Assembly (NCBI GenBank): GCA_018970165.1
Contig: JAGWWZ010000005.1
Span: forward strand, 1-52,482
Origin: Planctomycetota bacterium
GTDB lineage: Bacteria; Planctomycetota; Planctomycetia; Pirellulales; Pirellulaceae
Reading direction: 5' to 3'
DNA: 52,482 nt
The position numbers and the translations under genes were made by a program. Below the pieces are notes generated by a model, which saw only the letters and a list, made by a program, of their open reading frames with translations, did not search any database and was not told where the DNA came from. Positions 22,066 to 40,931 of this stretch are shown here, one piece after another (positions within the stretch are counted from its first letter, which is position 1; every line of letters begins with the position of its first letter).

Positions 22066-23157
22066 TCAGCAGATTCTCGGCAATTGCTCTCCGACTGGTA
22101 TCGGTATCATCCGAACGGTCCCCAAGCGAGTCCGCATGACAACGCGGTGCGATGCATCGGCAACAACTCGCCCAATTCGCGTTGCGTATTGCCCAAGCTG
22201 ATGCGATTTCATGGCGTGCAATACACGATCGACGGAACCATCCGGAACGATCGCGATTACTTTCCCTTCGTTGGCGACTGCGAGGGGATCCAAACCAAAC
22301 AATTCACACGCGGAATGAACTGCAGCATGGACCGGTATCGCGGCTTCATCGAGTTCGATTCCGACCTTTGCAGCTGAGGCAATTTCGTAAAGGGCAGCAG
22401 CAGCACCACCGCGAGTTGGATCGCGCAAACATCGCACCTCCGGACATGTGCCTAACATCGCAGCGACAAGTTCGTAAAGAGGAGCCGTGTCGCTAACGAT
22501 AGGACTTGCAAATTGCATCCCTGCGCGGTGGCTCAGAATTGCCATACCATGATCGCCGAGATTACCGTTGATCACAATCGCATCTCCCGGTTTCGCATGA
22601 CGTATCGATAGATCTATCCCTTCCCGAACCTCGCCAATCCCAGAGGTCGCGATGTAACATCCATCGCCATGCCCTTTCTCCACAACCTTGGTATCTCCCG
22701 CCACCACCGACACACCAACCCGCTTCGCTGCGGTTGCCATTGCATCAACAATGCTTTTCAAGGTCTCGATATCCAGCCCCTCTTCAAGAATGAACGCGGC
22801 GCTTATGGCCAACGGTTTGGCACCTCGCATCGCCAAGTCGTTGACCGTCCCATGGATCGCTAAATCTCCGATGCAACCACCTGGAAAGAATAAAGGCTGA
22901 ACCACATACGCATCGGTCGAGAAGGCCCATCGCCCATGCATCGGCTTGAGTAATGCCGCATCCTCTCGTTCGTTGAGTGCTGGGTTGTCCAATGCGCGAA
23001 GGAAAACATGTTCGAGCAGTTCCTGAGTCATCCTCCCGCCACCCCCGTGGGCCATCACGACGCGTGGGTAGTCGCTCATCGGACGAGGGCACTGGATAGA
23101 ACCGGAGTTTGCGAGCGGTGAATCGATCGAAGAGGAATCGGCAGGGGGATCCATCAT
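22066..23157 (-). CDS. hypE: Hydrogenase maturation protein HypE
   Basis: HypE (about 363 residues) dehydrates a C-terminal thiocarboxamide to the thiocyanate that supplies CN ligands to the [NiFe] centre. Visible marks are [69 protein letters not shown] and the invariant C-terminal PRIC, whose Cys receives the carbamoyl group. The start at 23157 is chosen because its ATG overlaps the hypD stop (ATGA). The open frame continues upstream to 23310 but that part does not look like HypE. A downstream start at [12 protein letters not shown] is also possible. It is the last gene of hypCDE. Confidence 0.93.
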
Positions 23158-24239
23158 GATGTGCGATATTGGTAATGGGCCGCGCAAGCACCCTCGCTCG
23201 AAACCATCGTTGCCCCAAGCGGGGTGCGAGGTGTGCATTCCTTGCCAAATGCTGGGCACTGGCTCGGCTTGATCATGCCCCGAAGTACGTCTCCGGAACG
23301 ACAAATACATGACTCACTCGAGCAAACGCGGACATTCGCGAACTTGATCGAAGCGTCGAAAGCTTCGTAGGCAGGACTCAGCTTCCAACCGCTCCGTGGA
23401 ATCAAACCCAAACCTCGCCAGACTCGATCGGTGACAACGAATACCTCGTCGATTACCTTTTGCGCTTCGATATTCCCTTTCTCGGACACGACGCGAGCAT
23501 AGGCATTCTCCAGCCGATGCTCTCCCGTCTCCAATTGCTTCACCGCACGGCGTATTCCCTCCAGGAGATCGAGCGGCTCAAAGCCCGTTACGACGATCGG
23601 TACACGGTAGGTCTCGCAGAGTCGATGGTAATCGGAATACCCAGTCACGGCGCAAACGTGACCCGCCGCAAGAAAAGCGTTTACTGTGACTCCCGACGAT
23701 CGCATGATCGCTTCGATCGCAGGGGGAACCAACACATGCGCAACGAGCATTGAGAAATTGGCGATGCGATCTCGCTTGGCAATCTTTGCAGCCATCGCAT
23801 TCGCGGGGGCTGTGGTCTCAAATCCGATCGCCAAGAACACGACCTGCTTCTCCGGATGGTTTCGGGCGATTTGAATCGCATCGAGTGGACTATAAACCAC
23901 GCGAACATCGCCGCCGGCTCCTTTGATGCGGATCAAATCCTCCCGAGATCCGGGGACTCGCAGCATATCCCCAAAGGAACACAAAATGGTGCCCGGCAGC
24001 GATGCGAGCGCCAGCGCGTTGTCGATTGTCTCAATCGGAGTGACGCATACTGGGCAACCCGGCCCATGAATCAATTCTATCTGTTTCGGAAGGAGTTGAT
24101 CGATCCCGTGTCGAAGGATCGCATGCGTTTGCCCGCCGCATACCTCCATTATTTTCCAAGGCCGAGTGGTCAGCCTGGCGATTTGTTTCGCAATCTGCAT
24201 CGCCTTGGTGCTATCGCGGTATTCCTCAAGATGTTTCAT
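23154..24239 (-). CDS. hypD: Hydrogenase maturation protein HypD
   Basis: The 361-residue protein has the HypD signatures [31 protein letters not shown] and the C-terminal cysteine-rich [14 protein letters not shown], then [20 protein letters not shown], which ligate a [4Fe-4S] cluster. HypD with HypC is the scaffold on which Fe(CN)2CO is assembled for [NiFe]-hydrogenase. It overlaps hypC by 4 bases upstream and hypE by 4 bases downstream, so hypCDE is a translationally coupled operon. All expected cysteines appear present. No oddity is seen. Confidence 0.95.
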
Positions 24240-24493
24240 GAGTTTCGCAGTTCTTCCAGTCCTTCCTCGAGCAATCCTAATTCCGCAAACGTTCGCAACG
24301 ACTCCAGGGCCGACTGCTCATCGATGCGACTGATCGCAAACCCTACATGCACAATCGCGTATTCACCCACCGCGATGTTCGGCAAGTACTCCAGGCAGAC
24401 CTCTTTGGTGACGCCACCAAACTGCAATCGCCCCATTCGGATGCCGTCCGCTTCGTAGATCGTTTCAACCAAGCCTGGGATCGCTAAACACAT
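24236..24493 (-). CDS. hypC: Hydrogenase maturation chaperone HypC
   Basis: The 85-residue protein begins [12 protein letters not shown], in which Cys2, exposed after Met removal, carries the Fe(CN)2CO group between HypD and the hydrogenase large subunit. The central [16 protein letters not shown] is typical of HypC/HupF. It is the first gene of the coupled hypCDE operon and overlaps hypD by 4 bases (24236-24239). Its start lies 108 bases from the divergent hypA start, so a short shared control region serves both transcription units. Confidence 0.95.
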
Positions 24494-24601
24494 TTTCGTT
24501 TCCGCACCTTTCCATCCCTGTTATACAATAAGGGAGCATATCGAGTCGAATGGCAAAGCCGCCGAATATTCATCCGGCGATCGTAGAGGAACCTAAAACG
24601 C

Positions 24602-25000
24602 ATGCACGAGTTGTCGATCGCTCTCAAACTAGTCGATCTGGCTTGCGAACACGCATCCTCGTGCCAAGAGATGCAGGTGGATGCTGTCCACATCGCCGTC
24701 GGAGCGTTGAGCCACATTCACGAACCATCACTTCTCAGTGGCTTTGCAATCGCTCGCGAAGGAACGCTTGTATCGGAGGCCGAATTGATCATTCGCCAGG
24801 TTCCGCTGGTCCTAGCATGCACCGACTGCGAACGCGATTTTGAATCGAGCGGGATTCAGGATCTGCGTTGCCCGGTTTGCCATGGCTATTCGACTCAGGT
24901 CCGACACGGGAATGAACTCGATTTGGAGTTCCTATCTTTACGACCGCGACAAGATGAAAATATATCAATCGGGTCTGTTTCCAATCCAGCGAGGATCTAA
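24602..25000 (+). CDS. hypA: Nickel-delivery protein HypA
   Basis: The 132-residue protein starts MHELSIALKLVDLACEHA, with the Ni-binding His2. It has the zinc site C73, C76, C90 and C93 as two CxxC motifs (CTDC and CPVC). HypA hands Ni2+ to the hydrogenase large subunit with HypB. The start has little Shine-Dalgarno: AGGAACC lies at about 24588. The stop at 25000 is immediately followed by the hypB ATG, so the two are co-translated. It is divergent from hypC. Confidence 0.94.
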   Translation: MHELSIALKLVDLACEHASSCQEMQVDAVHIAVGALSHIHEPSLLSGFAIAREGTLVSEAELIIRQVPLVLACTDCERDFESSGIQDLRCPVCHGYSTQVRHGNELDLEFLSLRPRQDENISIGSVSNPARI

Positions 25001-25675
25001 ATGATGCAGGAACCCCGGATTCTTCAAGTCCGAACACAGATCCTCAAAAAAAATGACGAACTAGCTCGATCGATGCGAGAGCAGTTCCTGCAGGCGGGTG
25101 TGTTCGTTTCCAACTGGGTTTCCAGTCCCGGCTCTGGCAAAACGACCCTGCTGTTGGAGACGCTGACCCATCTCCGAAATATCGGGCAAAGAGTAGCAGC
25201 GATCGTGGGAGACCTGGAAACCGACAACGATGCCCAACGGCTAGCGCAGAGCGGCGCGCCGGTACGGCAGATCATGACGCATGGTTGTTGCCATCTCGAA
25301 GCGAACATGGTGGAGGAGCAACTCCACAATTGGTCCCTCTCTGATTTCGATTATCTGTTTGTTGAGAACGTAGGCAATCTTGTTTGTCCGACCAGTTGGG
25401 ATCTGGGGGAATCGCTCCGTGTCGCGCTGCTGTCCGTGACGGAGGGAGAAGATAAACCCCTCAAGTATCCTGGATTATTCAATACTTCGGATGTGGCTGT
25501 CCTGACCAAGATCGATTTGTCAGGCCCCTGCGATTTCGATCGCGATCGCGCGTTGGAGAATATTCAACGCGTACGACCGGGGATGCCGGTATTCGAGTTG
25601 TCCGCAAAGAGCGGTGAAGGATTGGATCGTTGGTTTCAATTCCTCATCCATCAGCGCTCCGCCACGATGGGTTAG
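25001..25675 (+). CDS. hypB: Hydrogenase nickel-incorporation GTPase HypB
   Basis: The 224-residue GTPase has the P-loop SSPGSGKTT (41-49), the metal-binding HGCCHLEANMV (C96, C97, H98) and GEDKPLKYPGLF, then VLTKIDLSG. The nucleotide-specificity motif reads TKID where NKxD is usual. The N-terminal His-rich nickel-storage stretch of some HypB proteins is absent, so this one would serve delivery rather than storage. HypB drives GTP-dependent Ni insertion with HypA, encoded immediately upstream without a gap. ATG 25001 is used; the second ATG at 25004 is equivalent. Confidence 0.94.
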   Translation: MMQEPRILQVRTQILKKNDELARSMREQFLQAGVFVSNWVSSPGSGKTTLLLETLTHLRNIGQRVAAIVGDLETDNDAQRLAQSGAPVRQIMTHGCCHLEANMVEEQLHNWSLSDFDYLFVENVGNLVCPTSWDLGESLRVALLSVTEGEDKPLKYPGLFNTSDVAVLTKIDLSGPCDFDRDRALENIQRVRPGMPVFELSAKSGEGLDRWFQFLIHQRSATMG

Positions 25676-25724
25676 CATCACTCGCAGATTCTCGTCTAGC
25701 GTCTTGCATCCGTTCGGTACCCTC

Positions 25725-25760
25725 TTCATATGGGATAAGTAGTTCATGTGGGATAAGTAG
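25725..25760. repeat. 18-bp tandem duplication at the hypF stop codon
   Basis: TTCATATGGGATAAGTAG (25725-25742) and TTCATGTGGGATAAGTAG (25743-25760) differ at one base. The second copy encodes the last residues and stop of HypF on the minus strand. The first copy contains a second stop in the same frame (TATCCCATATGA read on the minus strand), so the duplication doubles the end of the gene. Confidence 0.75.
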
Positions 25761-28095
25761 AGAGATGGGATGCTATCCACGCCTGCCCCAATGCAATCGA
25801 GCCATCATGGCACGGCCATTGCTGATGGTTCAAAACACGAAACCCGGCATCCTCGAGAGATTCCACCGCCAAGCCCAAGAGAAGTTCGTTTTGAAACACT
25901 CCTCCTGATAAACCAATCTCTAATATTTCGATGCAATCGGATGGATGTTTCACGCGGTATCGCGCTGCGACGGTAGTCATCCAAGCGGCAAGGATGCGAT
26001 GAAACCAATGGGCCAATTCTGATCGCGGCGTACCGCTCCGATAACGATTCACCAATTCGCGTACGAACAACACCGTCGGAAAATTGCGTTGCGATTCAGG
26101 CAATACCTGATGCAGCCAACTCCGGTCGGCATCGTTCACGTTCGTACAGGTGGCTTGATTGGCCAATTCCTCCAACTCGATTGCGGCCTGGGCTTCGTAG
26201 GTGATGGAATGTCGAACTCCCAAAAGCGATGCAACTCCGTCGAACAATCGCCCCATGCTGGTTGTTTCGATGCAATGAGTCTGGCGATCCAATAGTTGTT
26301 TGAACAAGTAATTGGCGTCCGGTTCGCCGTCGATTACGCAAGGCAAATCGTTCGTCCATGGGATCCCGGCGAGATGAAGTAGCGAGAGTGCAATGCGATG
26401 CGGGAACCGGACCGCGGCATCACCGCCGGGGAGTTGGAATGGCTGCAGACTGGCGAACCGCTCGAAACGACCATGACGCAGCGCGATGGCTTCGCCTCCC
26501 CAGATCGTTCCATCGTGGCCGTAGCCGGTGCCATCGAATACGAATCCCAACAGGTGGGCTTTTGGATCTCGTTGATGTTCTGCCATCAAAGCCCCGAGAT
26601 GTGCATGGTGATGCTGGATCAGGAAGGGTTGGGTACCGATTCGATGTGCCCGTTCCCTTCCCCATTGCGAAGCGAAATACATGGGATGCCGATCCGATGC
26701 AACTCGCGTGGGGGTTACGGACAATTTCTTTTCCCATCGCATCGCGCTATTCTGCAGACTGTCCATGGCTTGCCGATTGGAGAGGTCGCCGAAGGGCTGA
26801 CTGACATAGGCCCGATTTCCTCGAACGAGACAGAATGTTCCTTTCAAATCCGCGCCGCTTGCCAGGATATCTGTCGATGCGTCTGCAAACGGTATGGCTT
26901 CTGGGACCATACCTCGCGCTCGCCGAAGGGTCGACCGAAGGGTTCCATGGGACGTTTCGCGAAAACGAACGACGGAGTCATCGCACATCTCGATGATTTT
27001 GCGATTATGCAACAGGAATCCATCGGCGATTCCTGATAACCTGTCCACGGCATCATCGTTATCGATCGCGAGGGGTTCGTCGGATCGGTTACCCGATGTC
27101 ATCACCCAGGGGCCCTGAGCTTGGTGCATCAAAAGATGATGGAGGGGGCTGTAGGGAAGCATGATGCCGATCGTCGACAACCCCGGTGCAACGAGGGGTG
27201 ATATATGCGCATCGCGATTCCTTCGCATCAAGACGATTGGGCAGATCCAATCGTTTAGGCCATGCCATGCTTGTGAGGGACCATGAGCGATGGAATGAGC
27301 TAGTTCGTGATCGCGCGCCATCAAGGCGAAAGGTTTCTCGCCTCTTCCTTTCCATCGGCGTAATCTTGCGATCGCAGCATCGTTGCGAGCATCGCATGCC
27401 AGATGAAAACCGCCGATCCCTTTGATGGCGATGATCTGGCCGACTTGAACCGCATGGGTTGCGATCATGATCGGATCGGAACGTGCATCGGTCGAATCTC
27501 CCAACCATGACAATCGCGGCCCGCAATCTGGGCATGCGATGGTTTGGCAATGAAATCGCCGATTGTTGGGATCGCGGTATTCCTCCTCGCAGCGAGAACA
27601 AAGTGGAAACTCTCGCATCGTGGTTCGGGAACGATCGAATGGGAGCGATTCGATGATAGTAAAGCGAGGGCCGCAGTCGTTGCACTGTATGAAGGGATAG
27701 CCGTATCGACGATTGCCTGGGTCGGACATTTCCTCAAGGCATGCGTTGCATGTGGCGCTGTCCGGAGGAATCCTGGGTTGTAGATCTTCGGGGACTGTGG
27801 AGTCGAGGATTTGGAAACCGAGATACTCTCTTGCCGAGCCACGCCCTCGTGCCGGGTGATCGGCCATGGGCTCGATATCGATCCGTTCGATCACTGCGTG
27901 TGGCAACGAGTGCTTTCCGAGACCTTGAATGAATGCACCCATCGACGGCGAGGGGGCACAGGCCTCGATCACGACTTGGTCACCGTGATTGCGCACCGTA
28001 CCCTCGATTTGATGCTGGCGAGCCAATCTCCAGACAAAAGGACGGAATCCGACCCCCTGGACGGTCCCGCAAACGTAAATTCGGCGATGTTCCAT
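25744..28095 (-). CDS. hypF: Carbamoyltransferase HypF
   Basis: The 783-residue protein has the full HypF architecture. The acylphosphatase domain (1-90) carries CGTVQGVGFRPFVWRLA. Two zinc-finger-like cysteine pairs sets (about 117-190) read CNACLEE and CNDCGPRF, then CSRCEEEY and CPDCGPRL. A YrdC-like domain (about 200-400) follows, and a Kae1-like carbamoyltransferase domain includes HHHAHLGALMAEH, GFVFDGTGYGHDGTIWGGEA and the terminal GLSGGVFQNELLL. HypF makes the thiocarboxamide on HypE from carbamoyl phosphate. It converges with hypB and is the sixth hyp gene here, completing A-F. No hydrogenase structural gene is adjacent. Confidence 0.95.
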   Translation of the reverse strand: MEHRRIYVCGTVQGVGFRPFVWRLARQHQIEGTVRNHGDQVVIEACAPSPSMGAFIQGLGKHSLPHAVIERIDIEPMADHPARGRGSAREYLGFQILDSTVPEDLQPRIPPDSATCNACLEEMSDPGNRRYGYPFIQCNDCGPRFTIIESLPFDRSRTTMREFPLCSRCEEEYRDPNNRRFHCQTIACPDCGPRLSWLGDSTDARSDPIMIATHAVQVGQIIAIKGIGGFHLACDARNDAAIARLRRWKGRGEKPFALMARDHELAHSIAHGPSQAWHGLNDWICPIVLMRRNRDAHISPLVAPGLSTIGIMLPYSPLHHLLMHQAQGPWVMTSGNRSDEPLAIDNDDAVDRLSGIADGFLLHNRKIIEMCDDSVVRFRETSHGTLRSTLRRARGMVPEAIPFADASTDILASGADLKGTFCLVRGNRAYVSQPFGDLSNRQAMDSLQNSAMRWEKKLSVTPTRVASDRHPMYFASQWGRERAHRIGTQPFLIQHHHAHLGALMAEHQRDPKAHLLGFVFDGTGYGHDGTIWGGEAIALRHGRFERFASLQPFQLPGGDAAVRFPHRIALSLLHLAGIPWTNDLPCVIDGEPDANYLFKQLLDRQTHCIETTSMGRLFDGVASLLGVRHSITYEAQAAIELEELANQATCTNVNDADRSWLHQVLPESQRNFPTVLFVRELVNRYRSGTPRSELAHWFHRILAAWMTTVAARYRVKHPSDCIEILEIGLSGGVFQNELLLGLAVESLEDAGFRVLNHQQWPCHDGSIALGQAWIASHLSTYPT

Positions 28096-37736: not shown

Positions 37737-37994
37737 ATGCCGATGGAAAACTACACGCGTCATCAACAAAGTATCATCAAGAACTATTACAAGAATCGAG
37801 ATGATGTGGCATTCCAGCGATCCCAAGAGTTGTTGACGGAACTCTATTTGGCCGAAGGAAAGAAGCGGGAGAAAGTCTGGGAGAGTCTGTTCAAGAACCT
37901 CGAACGCATCGGTGTGCCAGCCGATCAAATCGAACACCTCAAAGCAGAGAAAAAGCCCGAGTTGATCGCCGCACTGCTTGAGAAAAAGCTGTAG
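37737..37994 (+). CDS. Small conserved-looking protein next to the Hsp100-RF fusion
   Basis: The 85-residue protein is soluble and highly charged, all-helical in appearance (YTRHQQSIIKNYYKNRDDVA, then SQELLTELYLAEGKKREKVW). I do not recognise a family. It begins after AGGAG about 11 bases before the ATG and ends 3 bases before the stop of the convergent Hsp100-RF2 gene. It has a normal codon pattern and a good ribosome binding site, so it looks like a true gene. Whether it is functionally linked to YbaB or to the Hsp100 fusion is unknown. Confidence 0.72.
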   Translation: MPMENYTRHQQSIIKNYYKNRDDVAFQRSQELLTELYLAEGKKREKVWESLFKNLERIGVPADQIEHLKAEKKPELIAALLEKKL

Positions 37995-37997
37995 CGA

Positions 37998-40931
37998 TTA
38001 CTTTCGTTCCAGCCAAGCCAACAGAAACGCATCGATCAAACCTGACTCGACATCTTTGATACGTCGCACGGAAACATCTGTTCGAGGATCGCGGACATCG
38101 GATTGGTTTCCAAGCCACCAGCGGCGCACAATCGGGTGCGAAGCGCGAGATACATCGGTGCGATTTTGGTCCATTAAGACTCGTTGCCGTTCGATTTCCG
38201 AACGCATCAGATCTCGAGCGCAATCCTCAGCCGCGCTGGCCTCCAAGTCATTGATCAAACGGATTCTCTGGCCGCTGGGTGTGTAGGTTGCTGTCACTTC
38301 CGTCTTGAGATTCGCGATGTATTTTCCCCTGCCTCGGAGACTTTTTCGAGTGAGCGTGATGAGGGATTTATCGACTTCTTGATTGGCGATCGGCAGTACT
38401 GATACTTTGACCATCGATAGCCCTTTGGACGGCCCTTCGTCGATTTCGTGCAGACCCTGTTCCCCTTCCAGAATCCCGAAAACGGCGATTCCTTCGATCT
38501 GCAATACGATCTGCTTGAGATCACCGCTGTCGAATGACTCTTCGTGAACCGCTGCAGCACGAAAGCCGAGCCGATTCCCCCATGCTCTGTACATGCCCGC
38601 GATTCGGGTTAGGTGCTTGGCGGAACGTTGATCGATAGCGTCGAGAACGATAAACGCATCGCAACGTTGTCTCGAGTCTTCGCAAAGCATGGCAAATCTG
38701 GTTAAGCAGGTCTCGCGCTGATGTTGTTCGATTTCGTAAACGATGGTTGGCAAACCTGCAGTCGAGACGTTTCCCCTTATCTTGCTCAGTCGCGTCTCCA
38801 AGTCGAGATATCCTTTTTCCAGCGACTCGATCACTTCCTGCAGTCTCTCGATCTGATAGAGTTCCGCGAGCTGTTCGGCAGCGGAGCTGGTATCATCCCA
38901 AAAATCACGGGCCCCGCTCTTGCGAACCAGATCGGTTTTTCGATCCGCATAGTTGCGTTCGCGAAAAACACTTTGAATGTTGTCCAGGAGGGTGCGAAAC
39001 TCAACCAATCGCTCGACTGCATGGGCTCGATCGACGAGACGCGTTCGCCCATCCACAGGATCAGCGATCCGAACGCGAGTGTCCAAATGCTGTCGGCGAG
39101 TTCGTTCATTATCGATGCATCTCAGTCTGATCCCATCGCCGGATGGGTAGAGTTGCAGCAGACTCGGCGGATTCTTGGTATCCATCTCGGCGAGGAATCG
39201 CGCCAGCGGCGCAAGCACAAGACGTTCGACGGCTCGCTTGAGAGGCCTTGCACCGTAACGCGCATCGTACCCTACATTAGCTAACAGATCGATTACTCCA
39301 CGATCGATGTCGACTTGTAAACGCCTTCGACGAATTCCATTTCGCATCAACACCGAACCTACCTCACGCGTCGCAAGCGATCGAACGTCTTCGCGGCTCA
39401 GCGAGTCGAATCGGATGATCCGCCCGATCCGGTTGACCAACTCCGGCCTAAAAAAATTCTGGATAGCAAGTTCGATCTGCTCGTCTGAGGATTCCTGGTC
39501 GGCGTCTCCATCGCCCGGTCGAAAACCAAATCCGCTCGCTTCGGGTACCGTCGCCCCCAGGTTGCTGGTCAGAATAATCACGGTCTGTGTGAAGTTGACG
39601 GTTTCCCCGGAAGCTCTGGTCAGTCGGCCTGCATCGAGCAGCTGCAACAGCAAATCGAACACCGATGCATCCGCTTTCTCGATCTCATCGAGCAAGACAA
39701 CCGAGAATGGGTACTGCTTGACGCGAGCCAGCAAACCGCTGGGCGAATCGGGCATGTTCGGGCGTCCGACCAGTTTTACAACTGCTTCATAACTTTGGTA
39801 CTCCGACATATCCAAGCGGATGAGCCGATCGGAGCTTCCGAATAAATACTGGGCTAGCGATCGAGCGAGTTCCGTCTTGCCTACCCCCGTCGGACCGACG
39901 AATAGAAAAGTTCCCAAAGGCTTGGATGGATCGGTCAACCCCGCTTTAATCAATGCGATCAGATCGACAACTGCGTGGATCGCGTTTCGCTGGCCGACGA
40001 GCCGCTCGTAAAAGAAACTCCGAACCTCATCGAGATGCAGAGGAATGGTGTCGTCCAGCATTCGGCGCGGTGTGCCTGTGATTTGCGACAAAGCTTCAAT
40101 CACACATTCTGGTCGTATGTCCCATTGGGGAAATGAAGATCGATCTGGGCTAACATCCTCTAGGATTTTCGGTAGAAGAATGGACTCTTCAACTGAGGCT
40201 TCCATCAACCGAATCGCCCCCGCAGGTCTTGCCATATCCGGAAAATAGACCTCGGCCAGTTCAGCCGCACGATCGAGAGTCTCCGGCGTCCAGCGGATCA
40301 AGCATCCATGCTCTTGGCTGAGCATATCTTCCATCTTCGCTCCCACGTTTTTCAAGACCTTTCTCGAATCGCTCGAAGAATGAGGTTCGATCAGGATCCT
40401 GTCGACCAGTCGCGAGAACCATGGGAAGGCCTCGATGTGTTTCTTGTAATTCTCCGGGGTGGCCTCGCCAAAGATAATGACATCCTCGCGATCCATCAAA
40501 GGTGCGAATGCAGACGCCATCGTTTCGTCGCACCCATCGTACCTTCCAACTCCGGTAAGGTTGACGAAATCAGTGAACCAAATAGCGATCTTCGCATCCT
40601 TGCGAGCGATATCGGTCATTTCCTTGACAACGGCTTGCCATTCACCGATGTACTTCTTTCCCGCGATCAACGCGCTGGTATTGGTTTCGAGAATTGTCCA
40701 GCGAGGATTCTTGCCTGCGGCAAGTTGAATAGCCGCGTTTCGAATCAATAGAGATTTTCCGACCCCCGAGGGACCTACCAGCAAGAACGATCGACCCACC
40801 TTAAGGATTTGGGTGCAGATCCGTTCCAACTCCCGTTCACGCTGAAAGATTTGTCCGGTTTGCGACGAAGGTCCCCAAACGCGGCCGAACTCGATGAGTT
40901 GACTTTCAAGTGAACGAGGGCCTTCAGTCAT
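37998..40931 (-). CDS. ClpB/Hsp100-like tandem AAA+ ATPase fused to a degenerate class-I release factor
   Basis: The 977-residue protein has two AAA+ modules followed by an RF2-like module. AAA1 (about 30-260) has Walker A GPSGVGKS (53-60), pore loop KKYIGEW (92-98) and a Walker B whose Glu is replaced (FTDF, 119-122). AAA2 (about 300-600) has GPTGVGKT (346-353), LLDEIEKAD (413-421), sensor SNL and FRPELVNRIGR. There is no Clp N-domain or M-domain. Residues about 640-977 align with E. coli RF2 along its length: DFWDD (676-680), GIAVFGILEGEQGLHEID, RGRGKYIANLKTEV and the terminal VRDPRTDVSVRRIKDVESGL. The GGQ and SPF motifs are lost. It may act on stalled ribosomes or on release complexes; this is inference. 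Confidence 0.85.
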   Translation of the reverse strand: MTEGPRSLESQLIEFGRVWGPSSQTGQIFQRERELERICTQILKVGRSFLLVGPSGVGKSLLIRNAAIQLAAGKNPRWTILETNTSALIAGKKYIGEWQAVVKEMTDIARKDAKIAIWFTDFVNLTGVGRYDGCDETMASAFAPLMDREDVIIFGEATPENYKKHIEAFPWFSRLVDRILIEPHSSSDSRKVLKNVGAKMEDMLSQEHGCLIRWTPETLDRAAELAEVYFPDMARPAGAIRLMEASVEESILLPKILEDVSPDRSSFPQWDIRPECVIEALSQITGTPRRMLDDTIPLHLDEVRSFFYERLVGQRNAIHAVVDLIALIKAGLTDPSKPLGTFLFVGPTGVGKTELARSLAQYLFGSSDRLIRLDMSEYQSYEAVVKLVGRPNMPDSPSGLLARVKQYPFSVVLLDEIEKADASVFDLLLQLLDAGRLTRASGETVNFTQTVIILTSNLGATVPEASGFGFRPGDGDADQESSDEQIELAIQNFFRPELVNRIGRIIRFDSLSREDVRSLATREVGSVLMRNGIRRRRLQVDIDRGVIDLLANVGYDARYGARPLKRAVERLVLAPLARFLAEMDTKNPPSLLQLYPSGDGIRLRCIDNERTRRQHLDTRVRIADPVDGRTRLVDRAHAVERLVEFRTLLDNIQSVFRERNYADRKTDLVRKSGARDFWDDTSSAAEQLAELYQIERLQEVIESLEKGYLDLETRLSKIRGNVSTAGLPTIVYEIEQHQRETCLTRFAMLCEDSRQRCDAFIVLDAIDQRSAKHLTRIAGMYRAWGNRLGFRAAAVHEESFDSGDLKQIVLQIEGIAVFGILEGEQGLHEIDEGPSKGLSMVKVSVLPIANQEVDKSLITLTRKSLRGRGKYIANLKTEVTATYTPSGQRIRLINDLEASAAEDCARDLMRSEIERQRVLMDQNRTDVSRASHPIVRRWWLGNQSDVRDPRTDVSVRRIKDVESGLIDAFLLAWLERK

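Follow-up and report, generated by a model that had tools for sequence, protein, structure and literature searches.

We describe here a gene on the reverse strand of a stretch of 52,482 nucleotides (positions 1-52,482 of contig JAGWWZ010000005.1 in GenBank assembly GCA_018970165.1, a Planctomycetota bacterium of the Pirellulaceae; this whole stretch is referred to as the window) that encodes, in one uninterrupted frame of 977 residues from ATG to stop (positions 37998-40931), an Hsp100-type motor with two AAA+ domains, D1 and D2, followed by a full-length module derived from bacterial release factor 2 (RF2). The fusion itself is confirmed: the open reading frame with its translation, the Pfam matches and the match to the release factor model prfB agree with each other, as a preliminary description made from the letters of the window had proposed. 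The module lacks both motifs that mark a working release factor, and we give about even chances to the reading that the protein is an Hsp100-class remodelling ATPase that carries a captured, dead RF2 as its built-in adaptor.

Four Pfam families were found above their cut-offs, i.e. AAA_2 (residues 337-503), AAA, ClpB_D2-small (511-584) and PCRF (664-830; E 1e-8, 35.6 bits against a cut-off of 24). The NCBIfam model prfB (TIGR00020) matches residues 646-974 with an E-value of 2.7e-18, at 66.1 bits far under its cut-off of 370, and the ClpB/Hsp104 model (TIGR03346) gives the fusion protein 327.6 bits compared to a cut-off of 1232.1. The last 360 residues alone match RF2 chains in the PDB (E 1.2e-10), and a profile of 31 modules matches RF2 structures with an E-value of 3.5e-52 over profile positions 57-399 of 402. 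Because of the E-values of prfB, of the PDB chains and of the profile of 31 relatives, the RF2 match lies far beyond chance; a match to the RF1/RF2 superfamily, named beforehand as decisive for the RF2 origin, was found with PCRF as well as with prfB. The alignment to RF2 had been drawn from a DFWDD segment to the C-terminus; it does reach the C-terminus and starts earlier than was thought, at residue 646 in the prfB match.

The module is homologous to RF2 over the length of that protein, with its parts in the same order, but both activities of a release factor appear to be lost. None of the 31 modules carries GGQ at the catalytic site (a GGQ string in row L129 lies off-site, ahead of the module), and none carries the stop-codon motif SPF or SPY. 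For column counts we compared 30 fused rows with 16 ordinary RF2 rows, leaving out the fragment L069 (two near-identical fused copies, L062 and L118, and the fragment L079 are not part of this alignment, A5); a column was called conserved if at least 90% of the ordinary RF2 rows agree and kept if 70% or more of the fused rows do, with domain borders of the module set by us. By this measure 25 of 128 invariant columns of canonical RF2 are kept: the helical part retains 2 of its 7, domain 2 retains 10 of 53, the GGQ domain 4 of 42 and the C-terminal segment, which is the best kept large part, 9 of 26. The kept columns are mostly glycines, hydrophobic or aromatic residues, with few charged ones or histidines (E824, H828, R936, D948). 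Retained are the FW pair, the Gly and His of a GLH motif ahead of the lost codon-reading loop (Gly826 and His828, kept in 30/30 rows counted) and, towards the C-terminus, much of a R.Y.L....VRD..TG motif. The genome of the window also encodes an ordinary RF2, RF1 and ClpB, which exceed their curated cut-offs with 456.8, 458.5 and 1266.8 bits, respectively. On these grounds the module would be dead as a release factor, active release being nearly excluded, and with its catalytic and stop-codon-reading motifs gone it probably serves a different purpose now. The preliminary description was thus right about the descent from RF2, although it was silent on the missing SPF and on the missing GGQ (SLRGRGKYI stands in its place); a role in release, or in stalled termination as it proposed, is not supported in view of the loss of both motifs, the state of the GGQ domain and the ordinary RF1 and RF2 of the same genome. 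The module is nevertheless under purifying selection: the ratio of nonsynonymous to synonymous substitution rates (dN/dS) is 0.118-0.335 for the module and 0.109-0.264 for the motor in six unsaturated pairs, three of them drawn among the same three genomes; a seventh pair, the window and genome G002, was saturated.

The state of the motor was read from an alignment (A6) of 22 rows, a part of the known copies, to which we added the genome's ClpB and its second ordinary Hsp100, which we take to be ClpC and which met no shown NCBIfam cut-off; the names of the motifs and their presumed roles in the motor are those of ClpB. The Asp-Glu pair of the D1 Walker-B motif, present in the ClpB and ClpC of the genome, is kept in none of the 22 rows: the Asp position holds Pro in 10, Thr in 7, Gly in 3 and Ser in 2 rows, the Glu position Asp in 16, Asn in 5 and Ala in 1. 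The catalytic set of D2 (Walker A Lys, Walker-B Asp and Glu, sensor-1 Asn, Arg finger and sensor-2 Arg), on the other hand, is complete in 22/22. What D2 lacks is the pore loop, as GYVG or GFVG occurs in 0/22 rows (both ordinary Hsp100 proteins of the genome have the motif), and any aromatic residue in this stretch is found in only 3 of the 22. The distance between fixed points of D1 and D2 is 103-156 residues compared to 249 in the ClpB of the genome, and therefore no M-domain of ClpB size is present; the stretch ahead of D1, which begins at about residue 29 of the window protein, is too short for a Clp N-domain. Among eight deeper members scanned, six have HEAT repeats N-terminal to the motor, and all eight pass the PCRF cut-off (24 bits), the lowest being L078 with 24.9 and L129 with 29.2 bits. 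Hence the ClpB-like Walker and pore-loop motifs of the preliminary description are borne out only partly, as D1 has lost its Walker-B pair and D2 its GYVG, and while the Hsp100 origin stands, the label 'unfoldase' is uncertain because the D1 active site and the D2 pore loop are altered.

The fusion recurs in other planctomycete genomes, where the preliminary description had suggested looking for it. The genome of the window (330 contigs, 95.9% complete) holds a single copy, and an orthologue (P0002, see the table) is found in a genome of the same genus. When the C-terminal part was used as query against 396 genomes of the order, 153 passed a threshold of 1e-14, and 12 of the 396, the window's included, contain the fusion with matches of at least 127 bits; below these the scores drop to 72 bits, and from there on the frames have the size of an ordinary RF2. 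Three of these 12 copies are cut by contig ends, and one of the three, G045, shows the module only. In a sample of 392 genomes of the phylum, 34 passed 1e-55 and 23 (again with the window's) are fused, with frames of 961-1554 residues and at least 240 bits, while the other 11 matches have frames of 348-419 residues and at most 217 bits, and all nine that were inspected carry GGQ. For 20 of the 22 other fused copies the sequences were read; G451 and G620 (cut short) are known from the table of matches only. The loci L163 and L171 encode an ordinary RF2, with GGQ and with SPY or SPF, and so does L077, one of the 10 loci of a scan of named genomes. Outside the phylum, three of 288 Verrucomicrobia genomes passed 1e-58, i.e. 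one fusion genome that was already known and two with a GGQ-bearing RF2, and all four that passed among 100 genomes around an Actinomycetota-labelled contig are ordinary GGQ-bearing RF2; the Actinomycetota-labelled starting genome itself holds a module fragment of 248 residues, which may be misbinned. A chimeric assembly is ruled out by the same joint in many genomes. We also considered a phage origin and rejected it, as a single scan of viral contigs returned no relative.

To place the module we calculated a tree from the modules of 30 fusions together with 42 RF2 and 3 RF1 sequences (quick method, no bootstrap, midpoint root; the fragment L069 left out). All 30 modules fall on one side of a branch with a support of 100 in the Shimodaira-Hasegawa-like approximate likelihood ratio test (SH-aLRT), opposite the 45 canonical rows, and this full support makes a single capture of RF2 likely. 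Long branches are seen for L078 and L112. RF1 is placed within RF2 on weak forks, so that the tree does not fix the exact source inside RF1/RF2; as far as profiles can tell, RF2 is favoured over RF1 (best RF1 match 1.7e-34, as against the value given above for RF2). The families f8 and f40 each cluster, whereas f1 is split, with the window and G002 beside f8 and G153 beside f2, and the Verrucomicrobia copy sits among Planctomycetota copies. Because of this split and of the position of the Verrucomicrobia copy, some horizontal transfer seems likely.

Compared with known systems, the fusion shares with ClpB/Hsp104 the two AAA+ domains, the catalytic residues and small domain of D2 and the aromatic D1 pore loop, but it differs by its low model score, the absence of room for an N-domain and of an insert of M-domain size, the missing D1 Walker-B pair and D2 GYVG, and the added RF2 module. 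From RF2 the module differs by its prfB score and by the losses described above. A parallel to it is PrfB3 of Arabidopsis chloroplasts, an RF2 descendant that has lost SPF and GGQ as well and stabilises petB mRNA; the fusion carries an AAA+ motor, and none is mentioned for PrfB3 in the part of the source consulted (PMC5897788). Like the module, the rescue factors RFH/PrfH and ArfB are side branches of the bacterial release factor family, but these keep the catalytic glutamine according to a review on release-factor evolution (PMC6514570), and the profile of the fused family matches PrfH structures with E-values of 1.8e-6 and 3.4e-5, compared to 3.5e-52 for RF2. The same review describes Vms1/ANKZF1, a protein of release-factor type that works with the AAA+ chaperone Cdc48 in eukaryotic ribosome quality control; unlike the fusion, Vms1 and Cdc48 are two proteins, and the release-factor type is structurally unrelated (PMC6514570). 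No such fusion is mentioned in section 2.4 of this review or in its passages on AAA+ proteins, fusions and planctomycetes, and we recognised no published description among the titles and beginnings of abstracts listed, a set that lies mostly outside subscription journals. What makes the family unusual is a complete translation factor that was captured as a domain and is under selection, yet has lost the two activities that define it. The family would add a bacterial case of RF2 put to new use, beside the plant PrfB3, and a double ring with a D1 lacking its Walker-B pair and a D2 lacking its pore loop tests ideas on how clients are moved.

How might such a protein work? Targeting of Hsp100 proteins usually proceeds via N-domains, M-domains or separate adaptors. 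In the adaptor reading, an Hsp100-class ATPase would have taken up a whole RF2, probably once, as its C-terminal domain. D1 would bind nucleotide and hold the ring together while hydrolysing little or nothing, and D2 would hydrolyse ATP; the client would be gripped by the aromatic pore loops of D1, a task we assign to them because D2 lacks pore-loop aromatics. The RF2 module might then stand in for the absent N-domain and M-domain as an adaptor that brings in or places a specific partner, be it a protein, an RNA or the ribosome. Several points weigh against this proposal. The sequence of the module is loose, with only 21-46% identity to that of the window, and any extra domain would by default be guessed to be an adaptor. 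The D1 Arg-finger position still holds Arg in 16 and Lys in 4 of the 22 rows (other residues in 2), and the replacement of the D1 Walker-B Glu by Asp in 16/22 may leave some activity. No clear lead to a partner was found among the neighbouring genes searched (genes were called by us by codon score, and a part of the neighbours was searched against Pfam). The module may do no more than keep the ring assembled, and a niche function, or one that moved horizontally, would likewise agree with the patchy distribution.

Among the alternatives, it is possible, though unlikely, that the protein is a motor bound to the ribosome: the RF2 fold would dock at the A site or the factor-binding region, reading no codon and cutting nothing, and the ring would remodel or extract a bound factor, a stalled complex or a nascent chain. 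Hsp100 rings act on protein complexes, which fits this idea, and the whole RF2 layout is preserved rather than one domain, the C-terminal segment and part of domain 2 having the most invariant columns kept in number. Nevertheless, SPF is lost in 31/31 and the GGQ domain has lost 38 of its 42 invariant positions; domain 3 averages 71 residues compared to 89, and in the part of the neighbours that was searched we recognised none as a ribosomal or rescue gene. A more specific version, in which the RF2 body would be a tRNA-shaped key that loads the Hsp100 ring onto the A or factor site while D2 removes a stuck factor or chain, strikes us as distinctly unlikely; if it were true, this ribosome-remodelling ring centred on Planctomycetota would be a built-in bacterial counterpart of Cdc48-Vms1, and any action on ribosomes would make the family an unrecognised bacterial quality-control machine. 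By analogy with the chloroplast protein, the module might instead bind a transcript, with RNA loading the ring, which we consider rather improbable. PrfB3 is a direct precedent, with the same double loss and a new RNA function (PMC5897788, consulted in part), and the helical part is less acidic than in canonical RF2 (mean charge -2.1 compared to -12.5), though this comparison is loose because the fused stretch is longer (124 versus 98 residues). Domain 3, however, shows no clear gain in positive charge (mean +0.8 versus +0.6), and no transfer RNA (tRNA) or transfer-messenger RNA was found in 20/21 loci, with one tRNA near L068, these being the RNA genes that were sought.

The module could also act as a decoy or regulator of termination that binds partners of RF2 (RF3, the methylase PrmC) or RF2 itself, as its descent and the ordinary RF2 in the same genome would allow; PrmC modifies the GGQ loop, however, and with this target gone we regard such a role with strong doubt. 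Our opinion is no better of a mere scaffold that would serve oligomerisation, for instance, and have no role specific to a client. By residue type, many kept columns look fold-determining, and the AAA+ paralogues of G022 and G024 carry different C-terminal regions, about as long, at the corresponding position, but the dN/dS of the module is close to that of the motor, and the charged or polar H828, R936 and D948 are kept nearly family-wide. A working release factor on an Hsp100 motor, finally, is extremely improbable: only the overall prfB match speaks for it, and we rejected it on the loss of GGQ and SPF from all 31 modules. The adaptor reading is the one we favour over these.

Features of the fusion gene in the window, and kinase or FHA genes beside fusions at other loci (residues are those of the fusion protein)
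Feature	Position	Strand	Basis
Fusion protein, complete gene, 977 residues	37998..40931	-	open reading frame; orthologue P0002 53% identical over residues 11-976
D1, first AAA+ domain, about residues 29-250, borders estimated	40182..40847	-	Pfam AAA, best stretch 50-151
D1 Walker A GPSGVGKS, residues 53-60	40752..40775	-	Lys in 21/21 covering rows
D1 pore loop AGKKYIGEW, residues 90-98	40638..40664	-	Tyr, Phe or Trp in 21/21 covering rows
D1 Walker-B site AIWFTDF, residues 116-122; Thr-Asp replaces Asp-Glu	40566..40586	-	alignment
D2, second AAA+ domain, large part, residues 337-503	39423..39923	-	Pfam AAA_2, E 2.5e-45
D2 Walker A GPTGVGKT, residues 346-353	39873..39896	-	Lys 22/22
D2 pore-loop place LVGRPNMPDSPSGL, residues 387-400, without GYVG	39732..39773	-	GYVG/GFVG 0/22
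D2 Walker B VVLLDE, residues 411-416	39684..39701	-	Asp and Glu 22/22
D2 small domain, residues 511-584, with sensor-2 GAR	39180..39401	-	ClpB_D2-small, E 3.2e-12; Arg 22/22
Linker, residues 585-645	38997..39179	-	gap between Pfam and NCBIfam matches
RF2-derived module, residues 646-974	38010..38996	-	prfB, E 2.7e-18; PCRF; family profile, E 3.5e-52
FWDD, residues 677-680	38892..38903	-	Phe 28/30, Trp 29/30 rows counted
GLHEIDEGPSKGLSM, residues 826-840, site of the lost SPF codon-reading loop	38412..38456	-	SPF/SPY 0/31
SLRGRGKYI, residues 864-872, where the GGQ loop would sit	38316..38342	-	GGQ 0/31
C-terminal segment (RF2 domain 4) VRRWWLG..VRDPRTD, residues 935-974	38010..38129	-	9/26 invariant columns kept
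FHA/kinase genes	L115 5609-6172, 10213-11439; L117 4977-7088; L121 12838-14487		L115 FHA by eye

No constant partner was found across the family among the neighbours searched. In the window, an open reading frame of 85 residues (37737-37994, forward strand) ends 3 bases from the stop of the fusion on the opposite strand and has no Pfam match at 0.01; the other neighbours, YbaB, a WD40 protein and an M61 peptidase, have no visible link. Directly downstream of the orthologue in G002 lies a TPR protein of 1431 residues with a C39-type peptidase domain (L027, 13642-17937). Genes for FHA proteins or Ser/Thr kinases adjoin the fusion in three f40 loci (L115, L117, L121), and a histidine kinase does so at one locus, L111. 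Several neighbours recur, i.e. an aldehyde dehydrogenase (L121 and three f8 loci), an ABC ATPase (L112, L123), a sigma factor (L117, L129), a TIG/PD40 protein (L120, L124) and a DUF6807 protein (L064, and L028 beside a paralogue); those recurring in two or more families we take for chance, because they belong to common families and none lies directly beside the fusion. The four f51 loci that share a sigma factor and an HD phosphohydrolase, and the collinear f8 loci, reflect ordinary synteny. Small conserved open reading frames beside three f51 loci were judged by eye to be reverse-strand readings and dropped. A defence function against phages was rejected too: the PADLOC matches of P0001 are confined to residues 301-459 and touch the AAA+ part only, with no defence family beyond AAA+.

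Two adjoining Hsp100-type genes, of 1143 and 789 or 780 residues, are found in two genomes of the same genus (L024, 6666-12474; L025, 6062-11843), and in L024 the changes in the D1 Walker B and the D2 pore loop largely resemble those of the fusion family; the C-terminal region of the larger protein has no family assigned. Another protein with two AAA+ domains (1195 and 1166 residues) occurs at L028 (8339-11926) and L029 (4652-8152); its C-terminal GEEHGVHHF recalls the GLH site of the module, and no such stretch is present in L024 and L025. Profile comparison of the C-terminal regions of the G022 and G024 paralogues with the module gave probabilities of 10.6% (E 0.0029) and 1.0% (E 0.052), by which kinship is not established, so that we excluded all of these paralogues from the counts. 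Elsewhere in the window, at 22066-28095, the hydrogenase maturation genes hypE, hypD, hypB and hypF pass curated cut-offs, with hypA just short of its own (86.5 of 88.1), and an open reading frame at 24236-24493, with no NCBIfam match at 1e-20, is hypC-like by eye.

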